A DNA stretch of 33,944 nucleotides from a virus, in the IMG/VR virus record IMGVR_UViG_3300030012_003786, positions 1 through 33,944 of that record; one strand, given 5' to 3'. The notes under the pieces are model-generated. The model had not been told where the DNA came from. It saw only the letters and a program-made list of their open reading frames with translations, and searched no databases. Within the stretch, counting starts at the first letter, position 1. The number at the start of each line of letters is the position of its first letter. The translations under genes were made by a program, and so were the position numbers. Below are positions 7,339 through 33,006 of this stretch, piece by piece.

Positions 7339-10300
7339 TTAATTACAAGCTGTTGGATTTTCATTACAACATTGGTTGTAATCACTATATATGCTACCAG
7401 GAACTGGAGCTCCACAACCCGGGCCTTCACCACAATTATTATTACCGTTAGGGTTGTTTGAAGCGTAATAAAACGGCGCAGTAGCAGTGTAACAATCATT
7501 TAGCGGATTAATAGTACCATCACTATCATCTTGACAAACTAAAGGATTATAAGAAGAACTACCATCTGAATTTTTTCCATCAATATTCAAGTAATAATTA
7601 CAAGCGTCTGGATCTGTACACCCAGCATGATAACAACAACAGCTTAAATCAGCGTTAAGTAGAACTTGATTTACAGAAAGATAAGCTCCAGGCGTTGGAG
7701 TACCTGCTGTAGAAGCACCAGTATTAGGATCTACAAAGAAAAGTTCTGCTTTTTGACCAGCACAATCAGCACAAGTTCTATGAAAACGTGTTGCACCAGT
7801 AAATTCATCGTAATCATTACTACAATCAACACAAGTGCTTGGACTTAACTCTCCTTTAACCCAATGATTAATTCTTTTTCTCTCAATTCCTGTAAAACTA
7901 CCATCTGGATTATTGTTTCCATTACGCCATTTTTCTCTTCCTTCTTCTTGTTGAGGATGATCGTCTAATCCAAAACCGTTATATTCAAAATTATAAGCAC
8001 CTGGATCAAGACATCCAGCTTGATAACAACAAGCTGTTTCGTTACCGTTACCAGCGCAAGCAGCTGGATCGTTTGCACAAGTAGAATCTAGTTGAGAATA
8101 AACACCAACACTATTTACAATATTAGTAGCATCATAACCAATAACAGGTACGTCTGCTTCCCAAAGACCAGATTGTAAAGTGGTTGCAGTTGAATCATAA
8201 TTAAAAGCACCAGCGTTATTAATTTTGTAACTATCATCTATTATATATCCTTTTTCGCTACCAAGGTGATAGTTTAAATCATAACCAAAACCATCTGAAA
8301 CATTTCTAACGTTATTTGTTGTAAGACTTACTGCTGTATGTATAAACTGATGCGCAATATTATCTGTACAGCCACTAATAGTACTAACACAACAACTTTG
8401 ACTATTAGTATTAACATCTGTCCAAGGATCACCATCACCTACAACGCCAGGTATACCCCAACCAAAGTTACCGCTAGTACAGGCAGTATTAGTATTTGAC
8501 GCGCTTGTATCTTGACAACCAAGTATTACAGGGTAACAGCTACCATCGTCTGAGCTAGCAAGTGGATTATAATTAAATGCTGGTTGACCGGGCGTTAAAG
8601 AACCACTCACATATCCACTACCACCTCCACCATAACCTGAGTTTACAGCAGCTTGACTAGCTACATAAGTATTAGGCATATTACCATTATCTGTACAACC
8701 ACCACCTAAGTAATTACAATTAGGATATGGACCTGTAGTTGGTAAATTGTTTGTATTATGAGACGTCATACCCCAATATTCAACTAAATTAGCTGTTGGA
8801 TCATAATTTGTAGCGTTCCAACCATCTCTATTGTCGTTTCCATTGGCATCTAATGGATCTAGTGTGCTACCATCTTTAGAACAAACATCATAAGTTATTA
8901 GTGTTCCTGGATCTGTATATTGCCATAAGTTTGCTGTTTGTGGCCCGTTAGAATACGTTGTGCCTCTACAAACTTTTATCATAGTACCTAGGTTGTTCGG
9001 ATCTTCCATTTCGCCAGCATGAAAACCAAGAGCAGGATCAATACAACCAATACAACTTGTGTTTTCGCACATAGAAGACATACCGTTTTGACAATTGCTA
9101 GTACTACCGCTTGGATTACCGGGCGTTACAGCTCCTGGCGCTCCATAATTACAATAACCAGGACTTGTATCTGTACAACAATAACTAGTAAATTGACAAG
9201 GATTAGCAGGATCATCAGCAGTTGCCGCTGGATTATAGTTAACAGCTGTATTATCCATGCAACCAAAAACAGTTTCAATACAAGTACTTATATCATTACC
9301 TTGTAGTGCGTTTAAACTATCATAGCATAAATTATTTACTACAATTGAACTTGGACTAATCTGTATACCATTAGGATTAGCTTGAGCACAATCATAACAC
9401 AAGTGTGGGTCATAATTTATATGTAAATAACCGCAATCACCACCTCCAGCTCCACAACCGCTAACACCAGTACACTTATCACATCCAGTATAATCATTAT
9501 TACTTGGATCGCAAACACCAACTTGCGTACAACCTGTAAAAGAAGGTGGTCCTGTACAAGTTGAATTATTACAATATCCATATATATCAGGTTGCGTGCC
9601 TTGATAATTATCGCCTTGGCTACAACCTCCGTAACAACAAGAACCATCATCTATTACAGTAGTAACATTAGGGTCAAAAGTTGAGTTAAGATTACCATAA
9701 TAATTACCAGCGTTTGGATCAGCGCATCCACTAACAGTTGCCCCTGCAAAATCACAACAACAGTTACTACCAGATTGCCCGTTTATACAGTTAGATTGAC
9801 CAGCAGGATCGTTAACACTACCGCAATCTGCGTTTGCGTTTGGATCGTAGTTTGTTGCATTTGAGTCCGTACAACCCCAAACTGAATAGTAACAACAACT
9901 ATTATCGCCAGGTGTATAAACACCATTAACATCACAACCTGTAAATCCAGCATTATAATTAGCGGCTGATGGATCGCTACAACCTACACAAGTATAATCA
10001 CAAGTTCCAATATCTATATCAGCATTTGGATCGTAATTACAAGCGCCTTGATCTGTACATCCAAGAACAGGATAAACACAACAGTTATCTGAAGAGCTTC
10101 CAGCTAAAGCGCCACCATCAAAAGCTGTTTGGGTATAATTATTACCAGCGTTAAAATCATTAGGATTACTATTACACCAAGAGTTAGAGCCTCCACCTAT
10201 TCCTCCACTATAGTTTGTTGCAAATGAATCTAAACAACCATAAATATAAGGCAAGCATATGTTGTTAGGATTACTAGTAGCGTTTGGATCGTAATTAAAC

Positions 10301-13300
10301 GCACCTGCATTTGTACAACCATAAAACTCACATGATCCATCGTCACAAGTAGCGCTTGAATTATAAGTGTTAGCTGAAGGATCCGTACAACCATAAATAC
10401 AAACAACACATGAGCCATCATCTACTGTAGCGTTTTGATTGTAATTAATTGCGTTTGGATCTGTACAACCGTAAACTGTTGTTGGTATTGATATTGCGTT
10501 TGGCAAACCAATACCTTGTAAACTCATTTCTGATGGATCTATATTATTTATATTAGTGGTATCACCTTTAATATAGTTAAACCATTTACCTTCTTTTTCA
10601 ATAAACTCATTAACCATACCATGCTGCTCTGTAGATTTACCTCTATCAGTAACTATTGAGTTTACATACCAACCATCTCTTGCAACAAGATTATAGTATT
10701 CATTATCGTTATATGTATTACCATTAACAACCGCGGTTGTTATTTCTTCTATTCTAGAATCACTACCTTCGTAATTTAAAGTGTTAAAAGATTTTACAAC
10801 TTCAGGTGTATCGTTTAAAACAACATTAACAGAAGAAGCAAGTTGGTAATTATAAAAATTATTATAAGTTTGATTATTGTGGCTTAACCAAAATTTACCT
10901 TCTCTAAAAGTATAATACATGTTATTTAAACTAATACCAGCAAAATCAACAGGATAATTTTGACTAGTATGTAATATAGACTCGTCATACTGTTTAATTC
11001 TTGAAGCCATAGATTTAAAACTTACCCAACCTTTAGCGTCTTCACTAAAAGATACAGTTAAATCTGAAAAAGTAACATTATAATGTTTTTTCTTAGTATC
11101 ATAACTACCAATAACATAATTTTTACTAAGACCTTCTTGCAGCATTATTTTTTCGTTTTGTATAAAATAATCAGCAAACCAATTACGCATACCAAACTCG
11201 TGTATTGGAGATAAACCATCTCTTGATAATCTTAATACAGCACCTTTTTTAGCGTCTGTAAAATACGCTCTATAAGAATCACTAGCAAATGATTCTGGAT
11301 TTTTAGATATACCGTATTCACCAACAAAAGGGATCGCTTGTCCTAACACGTTTGTAGATGAAGTTAAATTTAAATTACCATCAGCATTAAACAAAGCATC
11401 TTTACTTGCTAAAACTTTTAAAACTTTATTTTCACAAAGAGTTATTAAATCAGTATCTCTAGTATGTAGTTTTTGTATACTACCATAACTAGGGTTTAAT
11501 TCTTTAATATTACCTTCGCCTAATATAAATTGGTTTAAGTTATTTATACCAGACATTGAATTATATATACCTGAAAATATTAAACCATTTTTTCTTCTTT
11601 CTTCTTTGTATCTACCTTCAATTACAGTTGTAGATACTTTAGGTCCATTATCTATTGTAACAGCATTAAAATCATCACGTATCCTATCAGATTCAACACC
11701 TATATCATCGCCAAAAACATAGCAGTTAAACCAATCTAAAGAAACTAAATTACTATGAAAATCGCCTTCTATTCTAATTAAATTAGGATTAGTATTAGTA
11801 TAAGTGTTATCATCTACATCTTCTACAACAACTACTTCTATTTTAGTGCCTTTAAAAATCACATCTAATATAGTACCTTCTTCTAATCTTATTTCGTTAT
11901 CAACGTTAGCAGTATTACCTAAGTTAATATCTAAATTAAAATCTATACTTTGTACTATAGCGTCTTCTTCAAACTCTGTATTTAAATTATTTCTAGCAAG
12001 CCAAGTATCTCCATTACCATCTTCTACATTGCTGTAATAATCAGGGTTTGATTTTGATACCCTAACAATAGCACCAGCTCTTACTGGTTGAGTTGTTGAG
12101 TTAGCTATATTTACAGGATATGAGCCACTGGCTTCATAGTAAAGATCTATATCAGTATCTTGTTTAGGTTCTGTTTCCCATATAACAGGGCTGTCAGCTA
12201 TTACTTTTTCGCTATCACCTATTGAATATTGATCTTCTAAAATTTTTATAAAAGTACCACCTCCAACACTTTGAGCGCCTACATGATCTTTATCTGTTGA
12301 GTGTGCTGATGCGGTGTCAGACTCAGTAGCCCAAGGATATGTAGCACCACCTGTACATTCTTCGCTAGGACAAGGTTCTATAGTACCATTATCTCTTTCT
12401 ATTAAAACATCTTTTAAAGTGTATAAAGGATTATAACCTCGAGTATTATAAACTGGATTACCAAAATGCTCATCAAAAGTTATATTCCAACCTATCCGAA
12501 GCGCGAAAGGATCATTAGGTGTAGCTTGTGAACTTCCAATTATATCTTTTGCATGACCTACTATAGAAAACGGTCCTTCAACTTTTGTTATAGTACGTAT
12601 TTTAGGCCCGCCGTTTTCTCCTGTTTGATCGTCAGAAAATTTAACTTTAGTACCTACTCTTAATCTATCAATAAAATCTTTTTGCTCTGGATAATTATCA
12701 AGACTAAATTCACTTGCCGAAGGTATTGCCCCGTTATAACTATCTGCATCTATAACTTGTGTGAAAGCAATACTTATTTTTCTTGGCGTTGGATCTTCAT
12801 TAAGGCGCATACCTTTTCTTCTGGCTTGCTGAGCGCTGTTTCCAGACTTATAAAACCCGTTACCACTCAGACCAAATATATGCGACTCATCGTTTGGACC
12901 TCCAGGCGCAAAAGTACCTGTTGTAGTGTTAAAGTAAAAATAAGTTCTATCTATATACCAAAATCCACCTTCAACCTCAGGATAATTATTTGCTATAGGT
13001 GTGTAATTACCACCATCATACTCATGAGTACCAATATAATGCTTTAGTATATTCATTACCCTACCTGCGTTATCACTAGGTACTTGAAAATTACCAACAG
13101 GTAGCGGAGCAACATTGTCTTGATTACCACACTGAGGTATTAAAGCCTCTATAGGATCGCCATCAATACCATTTGCTTTGTAAACTTCGTTATTGCTTGC
13201 TCTTATTCTAGTTCCTGGAACAGAGTGATCAGCACCATAAAGTGCATAGCTACCATTAAAGTTATTTTCATCCCCAGTATAATCTTTTCCAGCATATCTG

Positions 13301-15984
13301 GTTGGGTTAATCGTGTCTATTGATTGTATTTGTCTACCTTCTCCAGAGTGTAGATAATACAAACGTTTTGAATCTACTTCAATCCAGTTAGTTTCAGGTG
13401 TAGTAATAACTTTGTTATCTACAATAGCATCTCTTTCTATTTTAACAAAAAATCTACCATCAAACCAAGACTTGTGTTCTTCTTTTTCTCTTCTAAACAC
13501 TATTTTTGTTTCGTCAAAAGTTTGAACAACACCACCAGCGCCTAACACGTAAGAAAATTCTATATCTTCTTCAAAAGGTTTTTCCATTGTAAATTCAAAA
13601 CCTAAACTATCATCACTATTAAATATTTTATCTATTCTATACCACTGTGATCTTCCATTATATTGAGTTTCACTTTCGTTTATTATTTTTAAACTAATTT
13701 GCACTTCTTCTTGGCCAATAGTTAAAGGATCACTGCTAGCAAGATCTTTTTCTGCTCTTTTTTGTTTAAATATAGCTATTAATTCTGTTAACTCGTTATG
13801 TCTATCTCCAGTTATTTCAAATATTTTAGAATCTTTAACAGGAATATTGGCATTAGCATTAAATAAACCAGTCTGACTAAACAAACTACCAGACACATCG
13901 TCGTAGGCTACTGTATCAAGAGCTGAAGCTTGTTGTTTTATAAAATCAGGAGCTTCGTTTTTAATAGATAATATTTTGTATCTAGCTTTTTCTTTTACAA
14001 AAGCACCGTGAGCATCTTTTTTAAGTATTAAATAAGTTTCTTCATCTACTTTAGCTCTATCTGACGAAGGAAAAGACAGCCAAACGTTACCATCTTCACC
14101 ATCAAAAACTCTATCCATAGCTAAGTTATAATACTCGCTAGAAGTTTCTTTTATAAAGTATTTAAAACTTGTAGCCCAATCAGGAGCATCGTTTAAAGGT
14201 CTAACTGTTAATCTATGTTGTTTTTTAGCAATATCTTTACTAGTTTTTATTACGCCGCTTTCACTTGTTAATACCGGCGTTTGTCTACCATAATCATCTT
14301 CGTATACAATACCAACTTGATAAGTTCTAAGAGATTTTATTGAAGGTAAAGAATCAAAATAATTTCCTCTTGGTAATTGAAAATCTTGTTTTTCATAATC
14401 TTCTATGTTTACTTCAAAGCTACCTTTATAAGGCGTGCTATTATCAGAACCAGAATACAAATCATAGTTTTGTAAATAATTACCATACACTAGTCTATTA
14501 GCAACTATTTCTTGACTAAGCGCTGCTCTTGGCACATTATCCCAATGCCTTTGTACTTGGCTTTCTGGTATTGCTTTAGATATAGTATCACTAGTTATTT
14601 TATAAGTACCTTTAAAACCTCCATCTTCGCGAACTTGAGAAGTTGTAGTGAAAGTATTATACTCGTATCTAGAGTTCCAATAATTATAAGCTTGACCTGG
14701 TATAAAAGGATCATTTTTTGATATTGTATCAACAACATATATAACAGGTGATCCTGCTTCTCTATATAATATATCAACAGAAACAACATCATCTGGTATA
14801 TCTTGAGCTATAAACTGCTCTATATGAGCAGCGTACAAAGTATTAACCATACCTAAGTTAAAACCTTTTGTAGGGTGATAACTAAAACTACCTGGTGAGA
14901 AAGCTATTTGTGAAAATGGAGAAAAGGGTGAGTATTCACCGTCAGAATATTTCCATCTAGTTGCAAAGCGTGGAAACTTTTTTTCAAATATTAAATCTGG
15001 ATCTGCTAAATTTGTAACAGTATAAGTAGGACTGTACAGATTACCTTTTTTAGTAATTACTTTACAATCAATTGGAGTACCATAAGGATCTATATTACTA
15101 GTATCACCTATGCCATTTTCTAGAATTAGAAGCTCTATATCATGATCAAACTTAAGACCTTTGCTCCACTTATCTTCTAAATCATGATCAGATCCTTCAG
15201 GTATTCTTTCTACGGCTTTTAAATATAAAGTATCACCTGGCTTATAATAGTCATGTAGTACGTTACCATAAAATTTACCTATTAAGTTTCTAACATTTAT
15301 TGTTACGGGATCACCAACTCCAATTGATGTCGAGTTAAAAGCATTAGGATATGGTTGTTCACAGTGAAGCTTTATAGAAGTAGAACCGCTACTTTCTAAT
15401 CTCAGCACAGGAGGTACTTTAGGTCCTTTTTTTATTACTGTTATATTTTCTTCTGCAATATTTATTCCTGACGCATAATTAATACCTCTTTCTGGAACTA
15501 TTAATCTAGTATTTGTAACACCACCTTGATCAGTTCCTTCTATAGATCTTGGTATGTTTATTCTTTTTGGTTCTGTAAAATTATCAGTCCAAAACAACAT
15601 ATCATCTACAATATTAATACCAGTTATTAGTCTTGTCTTATCATATTGTAAAACGCTTAAATTAACATCAACAAAAACAAGTGTTGCTGTTTCAGTTACA
15701 TTGTTGTAACTAAAAATCATATCTTTTTGATCAGAAGCTAATAATAAGTACAAAGTGTTGTTTTTATCATCTGTAATACTACCAACGCAAACAGCATCAC
15801 CAGGTATTGCGTTGCTTGATATTTGAGTATTACCTAATAAATTTTGTAGAGAACCTATATCAGATTCATCCGAGGTAGAAACCTGCACGTTCCAAGCGTC
15901 TCTGTATTGACCGTTTGGAACTAACCTTTCATCAAGGTCTTTGTTCATCTTACCACCGGTAAAATTATTTTTTAACTCTGGCAT
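7339..15984 (-). CDS. Giant muzzle/nozzle-like tail protein with Cys-rich extension, 2881 aa
   Basis: The N-terminus LKNNFTGGKMNKDLDERLVP followed by NGQYRDAWNV is a motif I recognise at the start of large tail proteins of crAss-like and other marine phages, where the family is linked to the tail muzzle/nozzle. Further landmarks are HWDNVPRAALSQEIVANRL near residue 481, YQVGIVYEDDYGRQTPVL near 558, and a block near 1480-1605 ending LRLSRDGLSPIHEFGMRNWF. Strand-rich repeats near the start (LYLLLASDQKDMIFSYN, LFWTDNFTEPKRINIP) look like beta-propeller blades. From about residue 1837 the protein changes to a cysteine-rich repeat region running to the end. The ATG at 15984 is 4 bases after the upstream stop. 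Role: distal tail tube or muzzle with a surface-exposed extension. The core assignment is by motif, and the extension's role is inferred. Confidence 0.85.
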   Translation of the reverse strand: MPELKNNFTGGKMNKDLDERLVPNGQYRDAWNVQVSTSDESDIGSLQNLLGNTQISSNAIPGDAVCVGSITDDKNNTLYLLLASDQKDMIFSYNNVTETATLVFVDVNLSVLQYDKTRLITGINIVDDMLFWTDNFTEPKRINIPRSIEGTDQGGVTNTRLIVPERGINYASGINIAEENITVIKKGPKVPPVLRLESSGSTSIKLHCEQPYPNAFNSTSIGVGDPVTINVRNLIGKFYGNVLHDYYKPGDTLYLKAVERIPEGSDHDLEDKWSKGLKFDHDIELLILENGIGDTSNIDPYGTPIDCKVITKKGNLYSPTYTVTNLADPDLIFEKKFPRFATRWKYSDGEYSPFSPFSQIAFSPGSFSYHPTKGFNLGMVNTLYAAHIEQFIAQDIPDDVVSVDILYREAGSPVIYVVDTISKNDPFIPGQAYNYWNSRYEYNTFTTTSQVREDGGFKGTYKITSDTISKAIPESQVQRHWDNVPRAALSQEIVANRLVYGNYLQNYDLYSGSDNSTPYKGSFEVNIEDYEKQDFQLPRGNYFDSLPSIKSLRTYQVGIVYEDDYGRQTPVLTSESGVIKTSKDIAKKQHRLTVRPLNDAPDWATSFKYFIKETSSEYYNLAMDRVFDGEDGNVWLSFPSSDRAKVDEETYLILKKDAHGAFVKEKARYKILSIKNEAPDFIKQQASALDTVAYDDVSGSLFSQTGLFNANANIPVKDSKIFEITGDRHNELTELIAIFKQKRAEKDLASSDPLTIGQEEVQISLKIINESETQYNGRSQWYRIDKIFNSDDSLGFEFTMEKPFEEDIEFSYVLGAGGVVQTFDETKIVFRREKEEHKSWFDGRFFVKIERDAIVDNKVITTPETNWIEVDSKRLYYLHSGEGRQIQSIDTINPTRYAGKDYTGDENNFNGSYALYGADHSVPGTRIRASNNEVYKANGIDGDPIEALIPQCGNQDNVAPLPVGNFQVPSDNAGRVMNILKHYIGTHEYDGGNYTPIANNYPEVEGGFWYIDRTYFYFNTTTGTFAPGGPNDESHIFGLSGNGFYKSGNSAQQARRKGMRLNEDPTPRKISIAFTQVIDADSYNGAIPSASEFSLDNYPEQKDFIDRLRVGTKVKFSDDQTGENGGPKIRTITKVEGPFSIVGHAKDIIGSSQATPNDPFALRIGWNITFDEHFGNPVYNTRGYNPLYTLKDVLIERDNGTIEPCPSEECTGGATYPWATESDTASAHSTDKDHVGAQSVGGGTFIKILEDQYSIGDSEKVIADSPVIWETEPKQDTDIDLYYEASGSYPVNIANSTTQPVRAGAIVRVSKSNPDYYSNVEDGNGDTWLARNNLNTEFEEDAIVQSIDFNLDINLGNTANVDNEIRLEEGTILDVIFKGTKIEVVVVEDVDDNTYTNTNPNLIRIEGDFHSNLVSLDWFNCYVFGDDIGVESDRIRDDFNAVTIDNGPKVSTTVIEGRYKEERRKNGLIFSGIYNSMSGINNLNQFILGEGNIKELNPSYGSIQKLHTRDTDLITLCENKVLKVLASKDALFNADGNLNLTSSTNVLGQAIPFVGEYGISKNPESFASDSYRAYFTDAKKGAVLRLSRDGLSPIHEFGMRNWFADYFIQNEKIMLQEGLSKNYVIGSYDTKKKHYNVTFSDLTVSFSEDAKGWVSFKSMASRIKQYDESILHTSQNYPVDFAGISLNNMYYTFREGKFWLSHNNQTYNNFYNYQLASSVNVVLNDTPEVVKSFNTLNYEGSDSRIEEITTAVVNGNTYNDNEYYNLVARDGWYVNSIVTDRGKSTEQHGMVNEFIEKEGKWFNYIKGDTTNINNIDPSEMSLQGIGLPNAISIPTTVYGCTDPNAINYNQNATVDDGSCVVCIYGCTDPSANTYNSSATCDDGSCEFYGCTNAGAFNYDPNATSNPNNICLPYIYGCLDSFATNYSGGIGGGSNSWCNSNPNDFNAGNNYTQTAFDGGALAGSSSDNCCVYPVLGCTDQGACNYDPNADIDIGTCDYTCVGCSDPSAANYNAGFTGCDVNGVYTPGDNSCCYYSVWGCTDSNATNYDPNANADCGSVNDPAGQSNCINGQSGSNCCCDFAGATVSGCADPNAGNYYGNLNSTFDPNVTTVIDDGSCCYGGCSQGDNYQGTQPDIYGYCNNSTCTGPPSFTGCTQVGVCDPSNNDYTGCDKCTGVSGCGAGGGDCGYLHINYDPHLCYDCAQANPNGIQISPSSIVVNNLCYDSLNALQGNDISTCIETVFGCMDNTAVNYNPAATADDPANPCQFTSYCCTDTSPGYCNYGAPGAVTPGNPSGSTSNCQNGMSSMCENTSCIGCIDPALGFHAGEMEDPNNLGTMIKVCRGTTYSNGPQTANLWQYTDPGTLITYDVCSKDGSTLDPLDANGNDNRDGWNATNYDPTANLVEYWGMTSHNTNNLPTTGPYPNCNYLGGGCTDNGNMPNTYVASQAAVNSGYGGGGSGYVSGSLTPGQPAFNYNPLASSDDGSCYPVILGCQDTSASNTNTACTSGNFGWGIPGVVGDGDPWTDVNTNSQSCCVSTISGCTDNIAHQFIHTAVSLTTNNVRNVSDGFGYDLNYHLGSEKGYIIDDSYKINNAGAFNYDSTATTLQSGLWEADVPVIGYDATNIVNSVGVYSQLDSTCANDPAACAGNGNETACCYQAGCLDPGAYNFEYNGFGLDDHPQQEEGREKWRNGNNNPDGSFTGIERKRINHWVKGELSPSTCVDCSNDYDEFTGATRFHRTCADCAGQKAELFFVDPNTGASTAGTPTPGAYLSVNQVLLNADLSCCCYHAGCTDPDACNYYLNIDGKNSDGSSSYNPLVCQDDSDGTINPLNDCYTATAPFYYASNNPNGNNNCGEGPGCGAPVPGSIYSDYNQCCNENPTACN
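7342..10475 (-). repeat. Cys-rich GCTDPxAxNYxPxAxxDDGSC repeat region
   Basis: Residues ~1837-2881 of the giant tail protein contain about 16-17 units opened by GCTDP, GCLDP, GCADP or similar, followed by A.NY.P.A and often DDGSC. Clear units include YGCTDPNAINYNQNATVDDG and YGCTDPSANTYNSSATCDDG. The first units are compact, about 25 residues, and later ones carry long insertions of up to ~100 residues. I count roughly 80 cysteines here, against only about nine in the preceding ~1,836 residues. Repeats of this kind are known in secreted and surface proteins of marine Flavobacteriia. The Asp/Asn spacing suggests calcium binding, which is inference. Confidence 0.8.
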
Positions 15985-15988
15985 TTAA

Positions 15989-17413
15989 TTAATGTTTTAT
16001 TTGTTTTGATTTACCTCTAAATATTTGAGTTATTTCTTCTAATTTTATATTTGATAGTCTAAGTTTTGCTTTTCTAGTTTCTGCAAATCTTTCTTTTTTA
16101 TATCTTCTAATTACATATTCTGGAACACCAGGTTTTACCGATAATATTGCATATGCTATACACTTATACATAGCTTCTTCAGCAAACTTATGCACTTTCA
16201 TCTCTTCATCTGTACCAAGACTATCACTTATATAATCTAATATCACAGTTTTTCCTGATAAGTTAGAGCTAAAATAAATTTTTCCTGAATTACAGTCTAT
16301 ATAATAAGATCCATTTACTTGTGCGTGTTGTGGGTCTAAACCAAATCTTCTACCTTCGTTTGGCCAGTATATATCATTTTGATAATCTTGGTAATCATTA
16401 ATATTATTTTCAGAAGGCTTATGTGATTTATAGTTTTTCCAAGTATTAGATGTTTCTTCATCACCAACTCTAACTATAGATATATTATCTATAATAACAT
16501 TTAAACCGAGCACTGACGTGTTGTCAGTTGTACACTCAAGGTAAACAGAACTAGGTACATAACCAGTTGCATTATTAACAATGCTATAGTTTGCGTTCAA
16601 TCCATCTGCAGTAATTGTTTCTGTATAAGTACCATTAGCACTTCTTGTAGTTGTAAGTGTTGGAATACCATTTTCATCTACTATAACAAAATTATAACTT
16701 CCAGTAGCGTAACTACTTATAGTATACGTTATAGTGTATTGTTCTCCATGTATTATGTCAACCGAATCTTGTCTAAAAGCTTGAGATTGTGGCAGGGCAT
16801 ATCCTTTTATACTATTGTCTTCATAATACCAACCAGACAAATTAAGACCAGCTGCTGAAAGCGCAAGACCACTTCCTACAGGAGTTGGTGTTGATTGAGC
16901 TTGACCATCAAACCCTACGTTTAAATTCCAAGCGCCTGAACCGCCTTGAAAATTTCCGTTTTTTATTAAGTTCCCAGAAGGTAATAAGCTTTCAATGTTA
17001 TTACTATAATTAGTGTCTTTACCAAATAAAAAATCACCGTTAGCATCTGTTTGGTATTTTTTAGGATTTGAAGTTTTGCTTAAAGTAGGATATAGTATAT
17101 GTTTTATACCAGAGCTGTCTACAGAAGATATTTTAGTATAATTAACGTAATCCTGAGGTAATGGCATTGTTAAGCTTGGTTTTACTTCTGTTTCTATTGA
17201 CTTGCAAGATTTAAAAACATCAAAACTTAATTCTTGCAAAGCTCTCTGTGCATGATAAGCTACATCTATTCTTTTTATTTTAGATATTAATTTATCTTCA
17301 CCGACATAAGCAACTATAAATTGATTTACAATATCTTTTAATGAAGTAAATTGATAACCACCAAAATCTTCATTGTTATAGTAATCTTGTTGAGTTTGAT
17401 TTATTAATGCCAT
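15989..17413 (-). CDS. Neck/ring connector protein with inserted carbohydrate-binding-like domain, 474 aa
   Basis: The N-terminal ~125 residues (FTSLKDIVNQFIVAYVGED, DVAYHAQRALQELSFDVFKS, LTMPLPQDYVNYTKI) and the C-terminal ~125 residues (FGLDPQHAQVNGSYYID, SDSLGTDEEMKVHKFAEEA, KERFAETRKAKLRLSNIKL) form a family I recognise next to large tail proteins in marine phages and interpret as a head-tail connector or ring protein. Between them, about residues 147-317, sits NLIKNGNFQGGSGAWN through NVIIDNISIVRVG. These are the opening and closing signatures of a galactose-binding-like beta-sandwich of the CBM_4_9 type. The gene starts 3 bases after the 246-aa gene and ends 4 bases before the giant tail gene. 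The core role is moderately certain, and sugar binding by the insert is inferred. Confidence 0.8.
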   Translation of the reverse strand: MALINQTQQDYYNNEDFGGYQFTSLKDIVNQFIVAYVGEDKLISKIKRIDVAYHAQRALQELSFDVFKSCKSIETEVKPSLTMPLPQDYVNYTKISSVDSSGIKHILYPTLSKTSNPKKYQTDANGDFLFGKDTNYSNNIESLLPSGNLIKNGNFQGGSGAWNLNVGFDGQAQSTPTPVGSGLALSAAGLNLSGWYYEDNSIKGYALPQSQAFRQDSVDIIHGEQYTITYTISSYATGSYNFVIVDENGIPTLTTTRSANGTYTETITADGLNANYSIVNNATGYVPSSVYLECTTDNTSVLGLNVIIDNISIVRVGDEETSNTWKNYKSHKPSENNINDYQDYQNDIYWPNEGRRFGLDPQHAQVNGSYYIDCNSGKIYFSSNLSGKTVILDYISDSLGTDEEMKVHKFAEEAMYKCIAYAILSVKPGVPEYVIRRYKKERFAETRKAKLRLSNIKLEEITQIFRGKSKQIKH

Positions 17414-19276: not shown

Positions 19277-20812
19277 TTACTTCATTAACATAAAGTTGTT
19301 AGCACCTTGAGTGATTAAACATCTTTCAGTTAAGAAATGTAATTGCATTGCATCTAACGCAGACGTAGCAGCACCAACAGAACCAGTAACCCAAGTTTTC
19401 ATTCTTCGGTCATCAGTTTGTGAAGCTCTATATCTAACATGTAAGAAAGGTCTTTTCATGCTTGCTCCAACAGTTTGATCATAAACTGAAGAAGTACCAG
19501 CAGGAATTAAGACACCTCTAATAGCGTTAGCAGAACTAGCATCATTAATACCACCTCTTGTAGCTTTGTCATTTAAGTATCTAAAATCAGATTTATAAAA
19601 GTCATAAGAACCTCTTCTAAAACCAGAGAAACCTAAATTTAACGCCATGTCTTCAGAGTTGTTAAATACTCCGTAAGAAGTACCACCAGCTCCGTAAGAG
19701 TTCATTGAAGCTAACATATCATCAATAGCTAAGCTAGTTGATCTGTTAACAAACATCATGTACTCTTCGATAGCACCTTGCTTATCAAACTCAGCAAGTA
19801 TTGCATCAAACTCAGCTAAATCAGTAGCAGCATTAACACCAGTTACACCAGTAGTAATATTACCTCTTGATTCTATAGCCGCAAATAAACCTTCAGTACC
19901 TACGTTTCCAGCACCAGCTTCAGAACCTACAATAAGATTGTTACCATCTGCTAAAGAAGCCGCAGCGTTCAATTCACTTTCTAACATTGCCATTTCAATG
20001 TAGTCAGCAAAACGAGCTCTTGTATCAGCTTCAGCTTTTAGATACCATAAGTAACCTGATTGACCAGCTTCAGTAGAAACTTCAACCCAACCAATTCTAG
20101 ATGTATCAGATCCAGAAACTTCGTAGTAATCTTTCATAATAATAGGTTTATTAGTAAAAGATTTAAAATCAGGTTCATTAGCACGTCTACCATCTTCTTG
20201 AGTAGTAGCAGTACCTCCAGTCATGTAAGAAACTCCTTTACCAAACTCAGAACCATAAACTAATATAGTAGTACCTTTACTAGTATTGTTATCAGCTAAG
20301 TTAGCTTGTCCATAAGGAGAAACGTCTATCGTAGCTGAACCAGCAGCAGCTGTTACAACTAAACATTTGAAAATACCATCAGAGTTTGAAATAATAACAG
20401 TATCATTAACTCTAATACCGTGTTTAGTAGCTGTAAAACCTGCAGTTTCATCAATATCAGATTCAATAGTTACTCTAGTAGTAGCACCAGTACCAGCGTT
20501 AGCACCAGCAGGTCCAGAACCACCTGTACCATCATTAGTTGCTATTTTACCTTTGTACGAAAGATGTAATCTACCTTGTTCAGACCAAACAACCTGATCG
20601 GATGTCATAGCCTCTTCTGCACCAACTTGTGATAGGAAACCAGAAATTGTACGAGGTCCAAAAACCTCAGCTTCTTTTTCCATCAAGTCTGGCAGGTATT
20701 GTTGTGCCCAGTCGTTTGCACCACCGGTAAAGTCTAAGTAATTTGTTGAAAGTGTTTGTTGCTGTGGAGCAGGAACACTATTTAACAAACCACCAGGATT
20801 TGAAATTGCCAT
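19277..20812 (-). CDS. Major capsid protein, 511 aa
   Basis: The protein starts MAISNPGGLLNSVPAPQQQT. Its features are those of a large HK97-fold major capsid protein of crAss-like or marine phages: an N-terminal arm with DFTGGANDWAQQYLPDLMEK, VFGPRTISGFLSQVGAEEAM, a Gly/Ala/Thr-rich insertion near residues 90-195, the spine-type helix YLWYLKAEADTRARFADYIE, and a C-terminal beta region ending near HLTERCLITQGANNF. Composition is balanced and less lysine-rich than its neighbours, as usual for abundant capsid proteins. It follows the acidic scaffold-like gene and is followed by a strong terminator, both typical. No maturation protease cleavage site can be fixed from sequence. Confidence 0.85.
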   Translation of the reverse strand: MAISNPGGLLNSVPAPQQQTLSTNYLDFTGGANDWAQQYLPDLMEKEAEVFGPRTISGFLSQVGAEEAMTSDQVVWSEQGRLHLSYKGKIATNDGTGGSGPAGANAGTGATTRVTIESDIDETAGFTATKHGIRVNDTVIISNSDGIFKCLVVTAAAGSATIDVSPYGQANLADNNTSKGTTILVYGSEFGKGVSYMTGGTATTQEDGRRANEPDFKSFTNKPIIMKDYYEVSGSDTSRIGWVEVSTEAGQSGYLWYLKAEADTRARFADYIEMAMLESELNAAASLADGNNLIVGSEAGAGNVGTEGLFAAIESRGNITTGVTGVNAATDLAEFDAILAEFDKQGAIEEYMMFVNRSTSLAIDDMLASMNSYGAGGTSYGVFNNSEDMALNLGFSGFRRGSYDFYKSDFRYLNDKATRGGINDASSANAIRGVLIPAGTSSVYDQTVGASMKRPFLHVRYRASQTDDRRMKTWVTGSVGAATSALDAMQLHFLTERCLITQGANNFMLMK

Positions 20813-26674: not shown

Positions 26675-26952
26675 TACTTAGATCTACCTTCTGCGAATCC
26701 TTTAAAGACTTTTTCCTTTCTCTCTTCAGGTGCTTTGCCCTCAAGCAAGTTTTCTTCTTCTTGTATTCTGTTAAGTATTTCAAACGCGTCAAATATAGCT
26801 AGTTTTTTAGTAGCTGCAGCATTTTTTAGTCTATCAGCAGAAACATCATCTTCTGTATTAGTAATAATCTTTTCTCTAGCTACATTGATAAGTTCTTCAA
26901 CTGCCTTGTGCCCAGCTTGGATTATAAGTTTCTTCGTTTCCTTGATATTCAT
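26674..26952 (-). CDS. Candidate terminase small subunit, 92 aa
   Basis: A short, strongly helical, charged protein: MNIKETKKLIIQAGHKAVEE, NTEDDVSADRLKNAAATKKL, then FDAFEILNRIQEEENLL. The stop overlaps the TerL start by one base (TAATG), implying translational coupling to TerL. Position and size match small terminases, which bind packaging-start DNA, but no clear helix-turn-helix can be picked out, so this is positional inference. The ATG lies 56 bases inside the end of the upstream 196-aa gene, a long overlap for this genome. An internal later start is possible but would lose the conserved-looking helix. Confidence 0.7.
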   Translation of the reverse strand: MNIKETKKLIIQAGHKAVEELINVAREKIITNTEDDVSADRLKNAAATKKLAIFDAFEILNRIQEEENLLEGKAPEERKEKVFKGFAEGRSK

Positions 26953-27487
26953 ATTTAATTGTAATAAATTTAGATAAAACTCTATATAATTTTTGTCCGT
27001 CTATTACGAACTCATATTCACTATTAGGTGTAAAACCAACTAGATCACCTTTGTTAAAACCTTTATCAGCATATTCTATAATACCCATTAACGGTTGTTC
27101 TTGATCAATATCAAGCTTGTTAAAGTTTTTTATAGGTTTTACCCAGCAAAAACCAGGTATTGTTTTCCACTGCCAAAATGTTTTGTATAAAAATATTTGA
27201 TCTTGTGATATTATATAAGTGTCTTCTTTAAAATAACTTCTACTATTTTTTTCTTCACCGTGCTGGTTATGCCACCTACGAAAAACATTGTGATGTACTA
27301 TAACGTCATCGCCTATTTCAATATTTGTATTACCAATAATAGGTGTAGATATAACTGTTGCTTGTCGATTAATATACTGATGATTAAATATTTCAGTATT
27401 AAGTATTAAATTTTTATCACCAACTTTTTTGCTATTATTATATCTATTACCTTTTGGTTTTACAACATAGTTGTAAACACTTCTCAT
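26897..27487 (-). CDS. GroES-like beta-barrel protein (putative co-chaperonin-like), 196 aa
   Basis: The first ~75 residues have the order of a GroES/gp31-like barrel. NYVVKPKGNRYNN is followed by VGDKNLILN, then RQATVISTPIIGNTNIEIGD and DVIVHHNVFRRW, comparable to the GroES pattern of a turn leading to V.VGD.V.F. The remaining ~120 residues are aromatic and beta-rich (QIFLYKTFWQWKTIPGFCWV; GDLVGFTPNSEYEFVIDGQK) and repeat a GD.VGF-like strand-turn. The GLIM-type mobile loop of true GroES is not obvious. It ends with TGA, one of few such stops here. A second, diverged co-chaperonin in the packaging operon is plausible. A purely structural beta-barrel protein is the alternative. Confidence 0.55.
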   Translation of the reverse strand: MRSVYNYVVKPKGNRYNNSKKVGDKNLILNTEIFNHQYINRQATVISTPIIGNTNIEIGDDVIVHHNVFRRWHNQHGEEKNSRSYFKEDTYIISQDQIFLYKTFWQWKTIPGFCWVKPIKNFNKLDIDQEQPLMGIIEYADKGFNKGDLVGFTPNSEYEFVIDGQKLYRVLSKFITIKYEYQGNEETYNPSWAQGS

Positions 27488-27708
27488 TAGTACTCTAGAT
27501 TATATTCTACAGATACAGCCATGTTTTTATTAAAGTCTTTCCAAGGTAATACATTTTTATTTTTTCTAATATAAATAGAATACTTATCTTCTTCTTCTAA
27601 TATATCACAAATAGTATGACCGCCGTAAACTTCTTGACCAACAGCATAGTGCATAGCGTCGTTTTTATAGTCTTTGCCTATACTAATCTTTCTTATCAGC
27701 TTCGCCAT
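27487..27708 (-). CDS. Small conserved phage protein, 73 aa
   Basis: The frame starts MAKLIRKISIGKDYKNDAMH and continues with VGQEVYGGHTICDILEEEDK and YIRKNKNVLPWKDFN, a compact mixed alpha/beta sequence. I recognise the opening KISIG.DYKN.AMHY..GQ from small proteins near terminase genes of marine phages, but these have no assigned role. It overlaps the upstream gene by 26 bases and the downstream one by a single base, so it is tightly coupled. No membrane or metal-binding motif is visible. The function is unknown, and a packaging or assembly accessory is a guess from position. Confidence 0.75.
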   Translation of the reverse strand: MAKLIRKISIGKDYKNDAMHYAVGQEVYGGHTICDILEEEDKYSIYIRKNKNVLPWKDFNKNMAVSVEYNLEY

Positions 27709-27979
27709 TTTCTGGATAGTTTATTGTTCCGTCTTCAATATTAATATCAAATGTACCATAATCTTTTTCAAACTCACTTTGTAATATAGTTATTTGATCG
27801 TTAATACCAGCTATATTATGAAGAGCATTATGTTTTCTTGATTCCATAATACCAACTTCCATTTGAAGCTTGTTTACGCTACTTATTAAACCTTGAACTT
27901 TTTTTAACTGCTCGTCAGTAATTTTTTCAGGTTTAATACCTTTTAATTCTTTAATTTTTTTACTTGTGTTTTTTGCCAT
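27683..27979 (-). CDS. Small coiled-coil protein, 98 aa
   Basis: The protein is Lys-rich and helical: MAKNTSKKIKELKGIKPEKI, then EQLKKVQGLISSVNKLQMEV and HNIAGINDQITILQSEFEKD, with heptad-like spacing of Leu, Ile and Val. It ends in a polar acidic segment (GTINYPENGEADKKD). It probably forms a short coiled-coil hairpin. It overlaps the start of the 73-aa gene by 26 bases. I recognise no family function. Small coiled-coil proteins before terminase may be assembly accessories, but nothing in the sequence proves that. Confidence 0.75.
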   Translation of the reverse strand: MAKNTSKKIKELKGIKPEKITDEQLKKVQGLISSVNKLQMEVGIMESRKHNALHNIAGINDQITILQSEFEKDYGTFDINIEDGTINYPENGEADKKD

Positions 27980-28003: not shown

Positions 28004-28795
28004 TTATTGTGATTCTACATAATCAAACAGTAACTCTCTTTGATCAGCTGTTACCGCTGTACCATCGTATATTATTACATCTTTTATAAATCCGTTAAAA
28101 TTTTTGTCATCATCAGCGGCTGATCCTATATTGTTAAAATCTATTTGACCTGTATTAGTACTGTTTTCAGCTGCATCCCAGTCCTTACCAGAAGCTGTAG
28201 TATAAGCACCACCTCTAACATAAACATTTACGTTACCAGTGCTACCGTTAGATCTAACTACTATAGCTGTATAATAAGTATCTGTTTCCATAGTTGCAGA
28301 TCCTTCTGCAAACGTACTATTACTACTACCTATTTTCAACCTAAAAGCTTTGTTTGTTTGAAGCCTAAAAAATTCATCTGTAGCAGAACCAAAAAAAGCT
28401 CTTTGCGTACTAAAGTCTACACATTTAAATCTCACTACAGCAGTAAAATCTGTATTAGCATCTATTTGTATATTGCTAGTTAAATCCATAAACTTAGTTT
28501 GACCAGCAAAATTTACTGCTCCAGGCTCGTCTGCTTCAAACAAAGGCATATCAACAGAATTTGATTGTGCCGCGTGATTGTTGTTTCCAGACTGATCGTT
28601 CCACTGGCTTATTTTTTCACCATCAGGATATGGACTTGTTTGTGAAGTAATGGTTTGACCTTCACCATCTCTACCTCTTACGTCTGTATTAAACCTTAGC
28701 CATAACGATAAGTTTTCTATTTGATCAGGTACAAACTCACCACCTGGATAATCATTACCTGCTAGCTTATAAAATCCTACGCCTAATCCTAACAT
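28004..28795 (-). CDS. LamG/concanavalin-like virion surface protein, 263 aa
   Basis: The sequence has the pattern of a laminin-G/ConA-like lectin domain filling most of the protein. IENLSLWLRFNTD is followed by ISQWNDQSGNNNHAAQ, AVNFAGQTKFMDLTSN, FTAVVRFKCVDF, YYTAIVVRSNGSTGNVNVYV and, near the C-terminus, FNGFIKDVIIYDGTAVTADQ. The W.DQSG.NNHA and G.I.DVIIYD.. segments are hallmarks of the LamG_3-type fold. There is a short hydrophobic Gly-rich start but no clear signal peptide, as expected for a virion protein. The start overlaps the upstream gene's stop by one base. A capsid or tail decoration that touches glycans is inferred. Confidence 0.78.
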   Translation of the reverse strand: MLGLGVGFYKLAGNDYPGGEFVPDQIENLSLWLRFNTDVRGRDGEGQTITSQTSPYPDGEKISQWNDQSGNNNHAAQSNSVDMPLFEADEPGAVNFAGQTKFMDLTSNIQIDANTDFTAVVRFKCVDFSTQRAFFGSATDEFFRLQTNKAFRLKIGSSNSTFAEGSATMETDTYYTAIVVRSNGSTGNVNVYVRGGAYTTASGKDWDAAENSTNTGQIDFNNIGSAADDDKNFNGFIKDVIIYDGTAVTADQRELLFDYVESQ

Positions 28796-29163
28796 TATAA
28801 ACCTATGTAAGCTATATATTCACCACTAGTAACTGTTGTTATTTTAGTGTATCGACCATATATAGTTAATCCTTTAGGAAAAGTTGTTGCTGTAACAACA
28901 GCTTTACCTCCTGTACCAGATTCTCCACGATCAGGAGTTAACACGGCATCATGAGCAGCTGTTCCAGTGCCAGCATATTCTAAACCGTTTGCAATATCAT
29001 TATCAGCTACTAGCCCATCAGTTGTATTTAACGTTGTATCAGTTAAAAACGTAATTGCTACAAACACTTTTCCTGTTGGTGGTGTAATAGCAGATACGGT
29101 ATTATTATACACAGACCCCATTTGCCCAAAGCCATATGCTACTTCTGTTGAATTTTGTCCCAT
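28795..29163 (-). CDS. Probable virion surface protein, 122 aa
   Basis: A Gly/Thr/Ala/Val-rich, lysine-poor sequence (GKVFVAITFLTDTTLNTTDG, FPKGLTIYGRYTKI, SGEYIAYIGL) that looks like a small beta sandwich. Composition is like capsid decoration or head-fibre proteins and unlike the Lys-rich cytoplasmic-type neighbours. Its stop overlaps the start of the LamG-like gene and its start overlaps the holin-like gene's stop, each by one base. The family is not recognised. Decoration or fibre base is inferred from composition and from pairing with the LamG-like protein. Confidence 0.7.
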   Translation of the reverse strand: MGQNSTEVAYGFGQMGSVYNNTVSAITPPTGKVFVAITFLTDTTLNTTDGLVADNDIANGLEYAGTGTAAHDAVLTPDRGESGTGGKAVVTATTFPKGLTIYGRYTKITTVTSGEYIAYIGL

Positions 29164-29549
29164 TATTTTTTTACTTTTTCTAGTGATCTACCGCCAAAAT
29201 AAGCACCGATCACTGTTATTAATACTAATTGTAATAAGTCTGTCCACTTGTCTTGCACTTGAAAAGAAATAACACCAGCATCGATAAATATTAATAATAC
29301 TGTTGCTACTACTAAAAATACTAAAACTAATGGTCTTATATTTTTACTTAACCATGAATCACTGTTCATGTCTAACTTCCATCTCTCTGTTACTTGCTTT
29401 TGCATCTCAGCTTCGTAACCCATAATCATATCTTTAATTTTTCTTTCAGCATTTAGTTTTTCTTCTGCAGATGTATGTAAGTTATCTATAACTCCACCTA
29501 CGTTTTTAACTAGCTCTGCTGTACCTTTTGATAATAAATTTCCTATCAT
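29163..29549 (-). CDS. Holin-like membrane protein (3TM/GTA holin type), 128 aa
   Basis: A charged helical N-terminus (residues ~20-65, AEEKLNAERKIKDMIMG) is followed by SDSWLSKNIRPLVLVFLVVA, a membrane segment at ~71-93. A short polar loop leads to a second membrane segment at ~102-120 (LLQLVLITVIGAYFGGRSLE). The W.SK.IRPLVLV and IGAYFGGRS.EK elements are those of the 3TM holin family, which forms membrane lesions at lysis. It is co-transcribed within the virion block and overlaps the next start by one base. No endolysin is adjacent. A membrane protein is certain and holin likely. Confidence 0.78.
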   Translation of the reverse strand: MIGNLLSKGTAELVKNVGGVIDNLHTSAEEKLNAERKIKDMIMGYEAEMQKQVTERWKLDMNSDSWLSKNIRPLVLVFLVVATVLLIFIDAGVISFQVQDKWTDLLQLVLITVIGAYFGGRSLEKVKK

Positions 29550-30798: not shown

Positions 30799-31128
30799 TT
30801 ACTGGTCAAAAGCTATTGCAGTACAAGCAGTAATGTTAGAAATTGAAGCAGCAGCAGTAGCACCAGCAACATCTAAGAAAGGTTGTTTCATAGAACCTTG
30901 AGCATAAAAATGATCAGCAAGTTCTTTTAGTGTTGCCAAGTAAGTACCAGAAGTAATATCACAAGTAACTAAAGTAGATTTAGCAGTACCATCACCTGTA
31001 GTACCACCTGTGAAACCAAATCTTATAGTGTCAGCATCTACTAAATCTATACTTGATAAGTTAGATAAAGGCAATGCAGCAGCATCTGTTGCGCTTACTG
31101 TAAAAATAAGTAATCTGTCGTTTAACAT
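30799..31128 (-). CDS. Small Ala/Thr-rich virion protein, 109 aa
   Basis: The sequence (MLNDRLLIFTVSATDAAALP, DADTIRFGFTGGTTGDGTAK, STLVTCDITSGTYLATLKEL, then FYAQGSMKQPFLDVAGATAA) is rich in Ala, Thr, Ser and Gly with very few Lys, like the MCP and unlike most neighbours. The gene has an unusually A-rich leader (AAAAAAAAGAAA just before ATG), the pattern associated with strong translation in Bacteroidota. Both points suggest an abundant virion protein such as a head decoration or tail-tube component. No family is recognised. It starts about 70 bases after the GroES stop, the largest gap in this half of the window. Confidence 0.7.
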   Translation of the reverse strand: MLNDRLLIFTVSATDAAALPLSNLSSIDLVDADTIRFGFTGGTTGDGTAKSTLVTCDITSGTYLATLKELADHFYAQGSMKQPFLDVAGATAAASISNITACTAIAFDQ

Positions 31129-31199: not shown

Positions 31200-31457
31200 T
31201 TAATCTACTAGAACAACATCTCTGTCTTGAATAACTCTATAAAGTTTATCGTTAAATGAAATGTCGTGTCCAGCATGTTTATCGTAATATATCGTGTCAC
31301 CATCTTTTAGTACTTCAACTAAACTACCACACGATATTATTTTTGCTTTTATATAACGGTTGTCTTGATCAGTCTCATCTGTCATGATCAACCCAGCAAC
31401 CTTTTTAGGTTCTAGTTTTATTTTATCTACTATTATATATCTATTTACTGCCTTCAT
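31200..31457 (-). CDS. groES: Co-chaperonin GroES, 85 aa
   Basis: MKAVNRYIIVDKIKLEPKKV is followed by AGLIM, the counterpart of the GroES mobile-loop GIVL that docks on GroEL. Then come YIKAKIISCGSLVEVLKDGD, TIYYDKHAGHDISF and LYRVIQDRDVVLVD, matching GroES strands up to the final ILA-type strand. At 85 residues it is shorter than bacterial GroES (~97). The ENGE.KPLDVK roof hairpin is reduced, so the dome may be more open. The start lies 17 bases inside the groEL end, giving coupled translation with GroEL first. It caps the phage GroEL, or possibly the host's. Confidence 0.88.
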   Translation of the reverse strand: MKAVNRYIIVDKIKLEPKKVAGLIMTDETDQDNRYIKAKIISCGSLVEVLKDGDTIYYDKHAGHDISFNDKLYRVIQDRDVVLVD

Positions 31458-33006
31458 TGATACGTATGTTTGAAATTACACAATCGGCAGATACTATAGT
31501 AGTTACAACAGAAACCGCATTTTTAAGTGCTGACTTAGTAACAAGTACAGGATCTATGATACCAGACTTAATCATATCAACACTTTTACCAGTAACTACA
31601 TTAACACCTAAACCTTTTCTAGGACGTGGTGCCACTTGTTCTAAACCAGCATTTGCTAGTATAGTATCAAATGGTGCTTTAATAGCATTAAGTAGTATTT
31701 GTTCACCTACCGCGTCAGCGGTAATTTTTTGAGATGCATTTAATAGTGCTACACCACCACCTGGCACTATACCTTCTTGCAGTGCTGCTTTTGTAGCATA
31801 TATTGCGTCTTCTACTCTGTCTTTCTTTTCTTTCATCTCAACTTTAGAGTTAGCACCTACCATAACTACACCTACGCTACCTGATAGCATTGCTAATCTT
31901 TGTTGATGTTTTTTCTTTAAAAAAGGATTTTTATCTTCTTTATCAATTAACTTCTGTATAGACTTAATTCTTTCTTCTAGTTGTTCTTCTGGTGCGTCTA
32001 TAGTTAATACTGTATTTTTATCATTAGTTATAGCTGTATGTGCTTCACCTAAACAGTCTACGTCTATTAAATCAAGATCATCACCTAGTTCTTCGTTTAT
32101 TACTTTAGCACCAACTAAAAACGCAAAATCATCACATGTATCTAGTTTAGTAGGACCAAAGCCTGGTAGATCAATTATATTTACTTTAATATTACCTTTT
32201 ACTTTGTTCATAAGAAGCGCAGCTTTAACTTGCTGGTCAACCGGCGCAACAATCAGTAATGATCTTTTGTTTTTGATAACATGCTCTAGTATCTTCTGTA
32301 TTTTACGTATGTTAGGTATTTCCGATGTAACGATCAATACTAACGGATTATCAAGTTCGCAAACTTGTTTATCTTTATCGGTAATAAAGTGTGGTGATGT
32401 AAGTCCTGAGTCGATCTGCACGCCGTCAACTACTTCGACGTATGTCTCTTCAGTTGGAGACTCTTCCATTAATACCACACCATCTTTACCTACTTTAGTA
32501 TAAGCTTCTGCTATAATCTTTCCTAGTTCGCTGTCGTTATTACAACTAATCGAACTAACAGATTTCAGCATATCGCCCTCGATCTTGACAGAAGTCTTAT
32601 CTAGGTATTCATTTACTTTTTTAAGTCCAGAATTTATACCGTCTTTTATTTCTCTAACAGTTTTATTGCTGTTATTTACTTCTTTTAATAAAGATTCAGC
32701 AAGGACGGTAGCTGTAGTAGTACCGTCACCTGCTTCTCTTACTGTATTTCTAGCAGCTTCTTTAATAAGGGTTGCACCCATATTTTCAACCGGGTCAAAC
32801 AAGACAACAGATTCTGCTACTGTTACACCGTCTTTTGTTATTACCGGTAAACCACGCGCATCTTCGTAAATAACACACTTACCAGATGCTCCTAGGGTTG
32901 ATTTTACTGCTTTTGCTAGCTTTTCTACGCCAGCTATTACCTTATTTTTAGCGTTTTCGCCGAAATTTACATCCTTAACGAACTCGCTAGGCTGATTATA
33001 TTCCAT
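31441..33006 (-). CDS. groEL: Chaperonin GroEL (group I), 521 aa
   Basis: ATP-site motifs are present: TLGASGK (37-43, canonical TLGPKGR altered), ITKDG with D59, GDGTTTAT (93-100, D94), and VEDAIYATKAALQEG with D400 at the place of the hydrolysis Asp398. PGGGVALLNA (415-424) lies in the hinge region. The apical domain (VDGVQIDSGLTSPHF; PGFGPTKLD) is complete. Several residues at GroES/substrate-contact positions differ, for example L for Tyr199, H for Tyr203, Q for Leu234 and K for Leu259 by my alignment. The GGM-rich C-terminal tail is absent: the protein ends INEGSK. The stop is TAG. It probably folds large phage structural proteins in the host cytoplasm. Confidence 0.95.
   Translation of the reverse strand: MEYNQPSEFVKDVNFGENAKNKVIAGVEKLAKAVKSTLGASGKCVIYEDARGLPVITKDGVTVAESVVLFDPVENMGATLIKEAARNTVREAGDGTTTATVLAESLLKEVNNSNKTVREIKDGINSGLKKVNEYLDKTSVKIEGDMLKSVSSISCNNDSELGKIIAEAYTKVGKDGVVLMEESPTEETYVEVVDGVQIDSGLTSPHFITDKDKQVCELDNPLVLIVTSEIPNIRKIQKILEHVIKNKRSLLIVAPVDQQVKAALLMNKVKGNIKVNIIDLPGFGPTKLDTCDDFAFLVGAKVINEELGDDLDLIDVDCLGEAHTAITNDKNTVLTIDAPEEQLEERIKSIQKLIDKEDKNPFLKKKHQQRLAMLSGSVGVVMVGANSKVEMKEKKDRVEDAIYATKAALQEGIVPGGGVALLNASQKITADAVGEQILLNAIKAPFDTILANAGLEQVAPRPRKGLGVNVVTGKSVDMIKSGIIDPVLVTKSALKNAVSVVTTIVSADCVISNIRINEGSK

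Follow-up and report, generated by a model that had tools for sequence, protein, structure and literature searches.

Gene content of the locus

The window analysed here is the whole of a virus record of 33,944 bases, and the genes and features considered are listed in Table 1. A holin gene, a gene for a small beta protein and a gene for a lectin-like protein follow one another on the minus strand. The last of these is termed the slot gene. The original prediction had paired the two proteins beside the holin and coupled them by one-base overlaps, and both observations hold.

Table 1. Genes and features of the holin to p98 interval of the window.
Feature	Position	Strand	Basis
Slot gene for a 263-aa protein of ConA/LamG fold, a proposed swappable adhesin	28004..28795	-	PF13385, AlphaFold2 model, structural match
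Proposed docking tag, N-terminal 17 residues of the adhesin, MLGLG start	28745..28795	-	Low pLDDT and conservation
Laminin_G_3 match, residues 107-251 of the 263-aa protein	28043..28477	-	Pfam search
Small beta protein, 122 aa, proposed cassette base/adaptor	28795..29163	-	Without named family
One-base overlap TAATG, small-gene stop / adhesin-gene ATG	28795..28795	-	ORF reading
One-base overlap TAATG, holin stop / small-gene ATG	29163..29163	-	ORF reading
Holin, 128 aa, upstream slot border	29163..29549	-	phrog_3427, E 1e-31; 98% in sister phage
p98, 98-aa protein, downstream slot border	27683..27979	-	99% in sister phage
Block unmatched by blastn in sister contig G012 except 28851-28884	28008..29121	.	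Flanks 92.8% and 94.5%

The TerL and portal proteins of the window match those of Flavobacterium elemo phages, Cellulophaga and Tenacibaculum phages, one Maribacter phage and metagenomic MW202828, which gives the best TerL match (63%). A flavobacterial host is therefore most likely, and the phage is podovirus-like and probably of marine Flavobacteriia. Besides GroEL and GroES it encodes a large protein in which a crAss muzzle C-terminal domain was recognised. This protein of 2881 aa (7339-15984) far exceeds the domain in size, and its match to PF25729 (E 9.6e-7) covers residues 1706-1807. Phage GroES and GroEL genes, and a second protein near the terminase gene that matches a phage GroES PHROG (phrog_13932, E 9.5e-15), occupy 31200-33006 and 26897-27487.

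The lectin-like protein and its small partner

The 263-aa protein matches Laminin_G_3 (PF13385) at E 2e-8, with 34.9 bits against a gathering cut-off of 27.6, and its AlphaFold2 model is a ConA-like beta-sandwich (mean pLDDT 88.1, pTM 0.87), which confirms its description as LamG-like. Laminin_G_3 was found at E up to 1e-3 in 22 of 34 slot relatives, the other 12 falling short. The first row of the second structural search (VIA) was chain p of PDB 9vyh, 'tailspike gp15' of podophage Pan3 (Z 18.2, rmsd 3.5, 213 residues aligned at 14% identity, residues 16-263 on 20-268). This Z score is tied with those of AbnA (18.0) and a GH54 arabinofuranosidase (17.9), and scores among the 50 matches listed, AbnA domain 4 included, are 15-18. 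Trans-sialidase lectin domains come next at Z 16.6 and are first in Foldseek's own order, where Pan3 gp15 is tenth by E-value. The protein may bind a glycan.

The model of the 122-aa protein consists almost only of strands (mean pLDDT 81.7, pTM 0.75), as expected for the predicted small beta partner. The protein belongs to no Pfam family, its best PHROG match has an E-value of 0.5 and no PDB profile match fell below E 0.38; the label 'capsid-composition-like' thus finds no significant Pfam, PHROG or PDB sequence family behind it. PHROG matches of single members of the small family were weak (best E 0.018) and were taken as chance. Foldseek's first match, a weak one, was a 114-aa turret chain of HFTV1 (E 0.17, TMq 0.34). 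The second structural search scored best, at Z 5.3, with a member of the thiamin pyrophosphokinase family, a value in the common range. Five BFVD matches reached E <= 1e-3, none of them shown with a functional name; the top one is a protein of an uncultured virus and has 57% identity. A tblastn search of both window proteins and one divergent small protein against the isolated-phage collection gave no match.

The original prediction also counted three separate glycan-contact folds in the block. Of the further two, the CBM-like stretch lies in a 474-aa protein (15989-17413), and a 1312-aa protein (3382-7320) has the Lcl_C-like motif at its N-terminus; both were seen by eye alone, Pfam searches to E 10 and PDB sequence searches for them were negative, and this count was not upheld. 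Both are kept as leads. A recognition role for the pair is probable.

The cassette in related loci

Relatives of the small protein are encoded on 188 stretches of uncultured virus contigs in IMG/VR, and the gene arrangement is therefore not due to chance. The best 80 of the 188 were examined, a choice that biases small-protein identities upward. Among these, 73 belong to the lineage of the window and have the gene order GroEL-GroES-...-holin-small-[slot]-p98-p73-p196-p92-TerL-portal, within the limits of coverage and detection. An ATG lies at the one-base overlap with the small-gene stop in 69 of these 73 loci from the best 80, and the slot is empty in three (L033, L036 and L044). Nine loci encode two proteins bearing the N-terminal tag described below (L003, L027, L032, L056, L057, L058, L064, L075 and L076). 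Several lineage loci have extra genes of 66-110 aa, and second slot genes are often preceded by other small genes. In L027 (1952-2281), L032, L076 and L018 a tagged lectin within the slot is preceded by a small gene that has a KYVIIP-like start; the products of these small genes are possibly an assembly helper or an alternative base, and the L027 copy has no PHROG match.

Other lineages account for the remaining seven loci (L041, L043, L062 and L063, and L065-L067). The small gene of L041 and of L043 is followed by a 1664-aa ORF that starts MLGIGN and in L041 contains three Laminin_G_3 stretches and a CBM_4_9 match just under the cut-off. In L062 about 4 kb separate the small gene from a tagged LamG gene. 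The module therefore spans more than one lineage and the pairing is not strict.

One genome contig matched, L090, from a Maricaulis MAG (NZMJ01000030.1). It holds holin, small, p73, p196, p92 and TerL genes, and with these phage genes it has the look of a phage contig that binning placed in an alphaproteobacterial MAG.

A conserved N-terminal tag

Slot proteins show a conserved N-terminal part and a variable C-terminal part as a pattern of sequence. With starts fixed by the one-base overlap alone, the tag M-x(0,2)-[LI]G[LIV][GAS] was present in 63 of 69 slot ORFs and in 1 of 476 other ORFs of at least 100 aa from the same loci, from which the pattern had itself been derived. All nine distinct second or later slot ORFs have it, though other genes precede them. 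The third residue, G3, is the sole invariant column in an alignment of 34 slot proteins, and M1, L2 and L4 are nearly invariant. The glycine and leucine codons of the tag vary at synonymous third positions; 2 of the 68 ORFs in the set used for codon variation had been given a tag-like ATG as their start, whereas the 63 of 69 recount used the overlap alone. The tag is the best conserved segment of the slot proteins and is predicted to be disordered in the window protein, where pLDDT is below 50 at residues 1-3 and 5-17. Conserved and predicted disordered, it looks like a docking peptide.

Hypervariability and exchange of the two genes

Protein identities were compared among 75 loci (the 73 core loci with L082 and L083), reduced to 65 by removal of near-duplicates, with the shorter sequence as divisor. 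Median pairwise identity was 23% for the slot protein, 56% for the small protein, 76% for the holin, 45% for p98 (over 1830 pairs), 64% for p196, 85% for p73, 84% for p92 and 78% for the TerL N-terminus. Close relationship of the phages does not carry over to the slot, whose median identity was 31% (range 5-87) in the 17 pairs with TerL identity of at least 92%; among the 39 pairs at 90% or more, 31 had slot identity below 40%. Identities of the small protein were scarcely correlated with those of the slot protein (r 0.06), TerL (0.16) or the other genes (0.09-0.16). The slot protein gave r 0.30 with TerL and -0.03 to 0.30 with other genes, and the remaining gene pairs ranged from 0.17 (holin/p92) up to 0.73 (p73/TerL). 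The low correlation between small and slot proteins argues against a co-evolving interface, except via the constant tag, although the slot protein lies near the identity floor, which lowers its correlations too.

Comparison of close pairs suggests how this variation arises. Both genes are swapped between L005 and L077, in which TerL is 97% identical, holin 95%, p98 96%, small 48% and slot 24%. Their nucleotide identity is 76-100% across the holin gene and the start of the small gene and at most 70% across both genes, apart from one 80% island at TAATGTTAGGATTAGG inside the low-identity stretch, and 96% is regained at the p98 leader. The slot alone is swapped between L031 and L038, where identity is high over the small gene and about the first 15 slot codons, low over the rest of the slot gene, and high again from the slot stop. 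Replacement is confined to the small gene in L016/L042. In L027/L032 it affects the first slot gene, and the second shows partial divergence. Breakpoints of the swaps sit near gene edges. On these sequence comparisons the pair is a recombining cassette, exchanged either as a whole or by one of its genes, the lectin or the small one.

The sister contig G012 shows the same for the window, since the block that blastn leaves unmatched, save for 34 bases, lies between closely similar flanks (Table 1). Its products are nearly those of the window for p98 (99%), p73 (100%), holin (98.4%) and TerL (98.6%), whereas the small proteins share 44% and the lectins about 25%; the slot gene product of G012 is a 237-aa protein starting MLGLGNS.

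Other genes also differ between the two phages. A 109-aa gene (30799-31128) is unmatched in the fetched part of G012, which has another ORF of 216 aa there, and this is another exchanged gene. The 548-aa protein at 711-2357 is 28% identical, other structural genes being mostly 68-95%; its gene, which lies at the far end of the block, is the second to vary strongly. The likely major capsid protein (MCP; 19277-20812) has 10-56% identity to that of G012 in 30-residue blocks across residues ~91-210; outside this insert it has 46% at residues 271-300 and otherwise 76-100%. The insert differs among 26 MCPs.

A diversity-generating retroelement, in which the protein would change by directed mutation rather than exchange, might be considered for a hypervariable lectin-like phage protein, but is extremely unlikely here: the change covers whole genes with sharp borders and the slot fold is ConA/LamG, not a C-type lectin. 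The reverse transcriptase family PF00078 was found in 0 of 13 virus records, which include the window and G012 and may be fragments; controls were positive in 3 of 14 genomes.

Other occupants of the slot

A survey based on TerL took the best 80 of at least 600 matches and yielded 79 new loci, 59 with p73; 17 of the 59 were too short upstream and 42 were classified. A small protein with a tagged protein was present in 14, and a short small-like protein with a tagged protein in two, that of L143 aligning to the small profile with Prob 30% and E 5e-4. Three had a small protein with a short MALGN/MSLGN protein, and two (L104 and L113) a small protein without a tagged partner, the L113 slot holding a LamG protein (E 1.6e-15) that lacks the tag. 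Ten had a single protein of 233-289 aa from another unnamed family, seven a protein of 819-1719 aa, and four none of these.

The 233-289 aa family, which replaces the small and lectin pair (L092, L097, L099, L102, L106, L112, L114, L125, L146 and L149), gave no match in Pfam (0 of 5 scanned members) or PHROG (0 of 4). Among the seven large proteins, four contain Peptidase_S74, a fifth (L118) matches a tail spike PHROG (E 2.9e-28), and one has two LamG stretches. Their genes precede p98, mostly with one to three smaller ORFs between, and the holin border is outside the sequenced stretch in all seven loci.

Homologues of p73 and p196 also precede TerL in MW202828 and the elemo phages, which at this position, behind a cell-wall peptidase gene, encode proteins sharing another N-terminus by eye (...L-I-G-T-D...). 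In phi38:1, which has the p196 homologue only, gp085 (S74) and gp087, a 'putative tail protein', are encoded there. In phi18:3 there is no large protein between the lysis gene and TerL, and the proteins detected by MS/MS (gp085-gp087) precede the lysis gene. A modular, swapped cassette, whose slot holds tail-fibre-like proteins in some related phages, is the main fact that the original prediction overlooked.

The tail-spike and S74 proteins at the slot position in some relatives count for a virion adhesin. They also speak against the reading that the protein is no part of the virion but a lysis-region product, set free when the cell lyses or active on the host envelope. Adjacency to the holin through a one-base overlap would suit that reading, but swapping of lectin-like heads fits surface recognition and no obvious signal peptide is seen by eye at the N-terminus of the 263-aa protein, so that we regard this alternative as improbable.

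A proposed adhesin cassette

We consider it likely, on balance, that the pair forms a two-gene adhesin cassette in which a tagged ConA/LamG head is docked, probably on a small beta base, and swaps change recognition. The 263-aa protein would be the variable binding head, its ConA/LamG domain lying behind a short flexible tag (MLGLG...), and the small beta protein most likely the base that docks the head, by analogy with what docking hubs and turret bases do in other tailed viruses. The tag may dock onto the small protein. Homologous recombination in the conserved 5' ends of both genes and in the following gene's leader would replace head, base or both while neighbouring genes stay constant, and could thereby alter surface or receptor recognition and affect host range.

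Gp15 of the cyanopodophage Pan3 (gene Pan3_15, 270 aa) provides a fold precedent that counts for the adhesin, and the tie of its Z score with carbohydrate-enzyme domains counts against. Like the slot protein it is a free-standing LamG/ConA fold of similar length, and its gene begins directly behind the tail spike gene Pan3_14. It has no detectable sequence relation to the slot protein (hhalign Prob 0.6%), starts MPSTLINRR without an MLGLG tag, and has a 745-aa tail spike as partner in place of a small beta protein. Several further observations weigh against the adhesin cassette: the layout of phi18:3 and the unseen holin border in the seven large-protein loci; the three empty slots among 73, L104 and L113 without a tagged partner, and L062; the 12 of 34 slot relatives that fall short of Laminin_G_3 and the second slot genes that follow other small genes; and a small protein without a significant solved relative, together with an MCP that is also variable.

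Alternatively, the pair could belong to the head, the small protein being a capsid turret or decoration and the lectin a head fibre that attaches reversibly to polysaccharide, rather than a tail receptor-binding protein. Turrets of HFTV1 consist, like the proposed pair, of a base (gp30) and a head (gp31) whose N-termini contact the base, and gp31 has a galactose-binding-like domain proposed to bind glycans (PMC12494034). HFTV1 is an archaeal virus, however, and its head is a deacetylase-like and galactose-binding-like protein, unlike the pair (PMC12494034). Foldseek's first match for the small protein, to one of the HFTV1 turret chains, would suit a head location but is not significant; the HFTV1 turret entry is absent among the 50 matches listed in the second structural search. 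The difference of the G012 MCP at residues 91-210 would also suit a head structure, but among the 26 MCPs, compared by eye, loci of different slot type are not set apart by the length of the insert. With tail-spike and S74 proteins in the slot of some relatives and a tailspike protein among the top folds of the lectin, we think a head location rather unlikely. The slot comparison and Pan3 lead us to favour the tail over the head as the probable place of the adhesin in the virion.

Docking through the N-terminus has a precedent in phiCrAss001, whose hub proteins THA and THB accept the N-terminal residues 1-26 of the trimeric tail fibre gp22 (PMC10172136). The window phage shares the crAss muzzle C-terminal domain, and the likeness drawn here concerns docking. 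More tentatively, MLGLG might be a portable docking tag, a pentapeptide at the head of the N-terminus. Many kinds of binding domain, such as LamG, PKD-like (by eye) and multi-LamG giants 894-1664 aa long, could then be fitted to one common socket of the virion, of which the small beta protein would form part, and recombination at the tag would trade adhesins among several marine phage lineages. The presence of the tag in just one of the control ORFs counts for this possibility, and the untagged LamG protein of L113 and the distant gene of L062 count against.

Among isolated phages, the elemovirus gene pair gp41 (88 aa, phrog_12296 'tail fiber') then gp40 (262 aa) is a relative with a similar layout that lies near GroEL, unlike the cassette slot before TerL. 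As homologues of the pair these were rejected, since profile comparison linked neither gp41 with the small family nor gp40 with the slot family.

Relation to known recognition islands

Metaviromic islands of marine phages are regions of host recognition that are hypervariable and contain genes of the tail fibre, carbohydrate-binding, C1q and lectin-like kinds (PMC3909814). We saw no description there of a separable base and tagged-head cassette, and the words 'laminin' and 'Bacteroidetes' do not occur in its main text; 'concanavalin', 'LamG' and 'glucanase' are likewise absent from the main text of the North Sea flavophage paper (PMC8776804). Hypervariable recognition islands are thus already known, and we do not claim that the base and tagged-head cassette, or the tag, is unpublished.

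In the islands known from marine metagenomes, it is seldom clear which unit is swapped and how it is attached. The cassette probably decides which sugar-coated surface the phage sticks to. Its unit is small and has sharp borders, with two genes, a short tag and breakpoints near gene edges, and sister phages provide natural swap experiments. These features make it possible to ask directly which proteins govern attachment to polysaccharide surfaces in uncultured flavobacterial phages, and whether a tag lets them be recognised from sequence.
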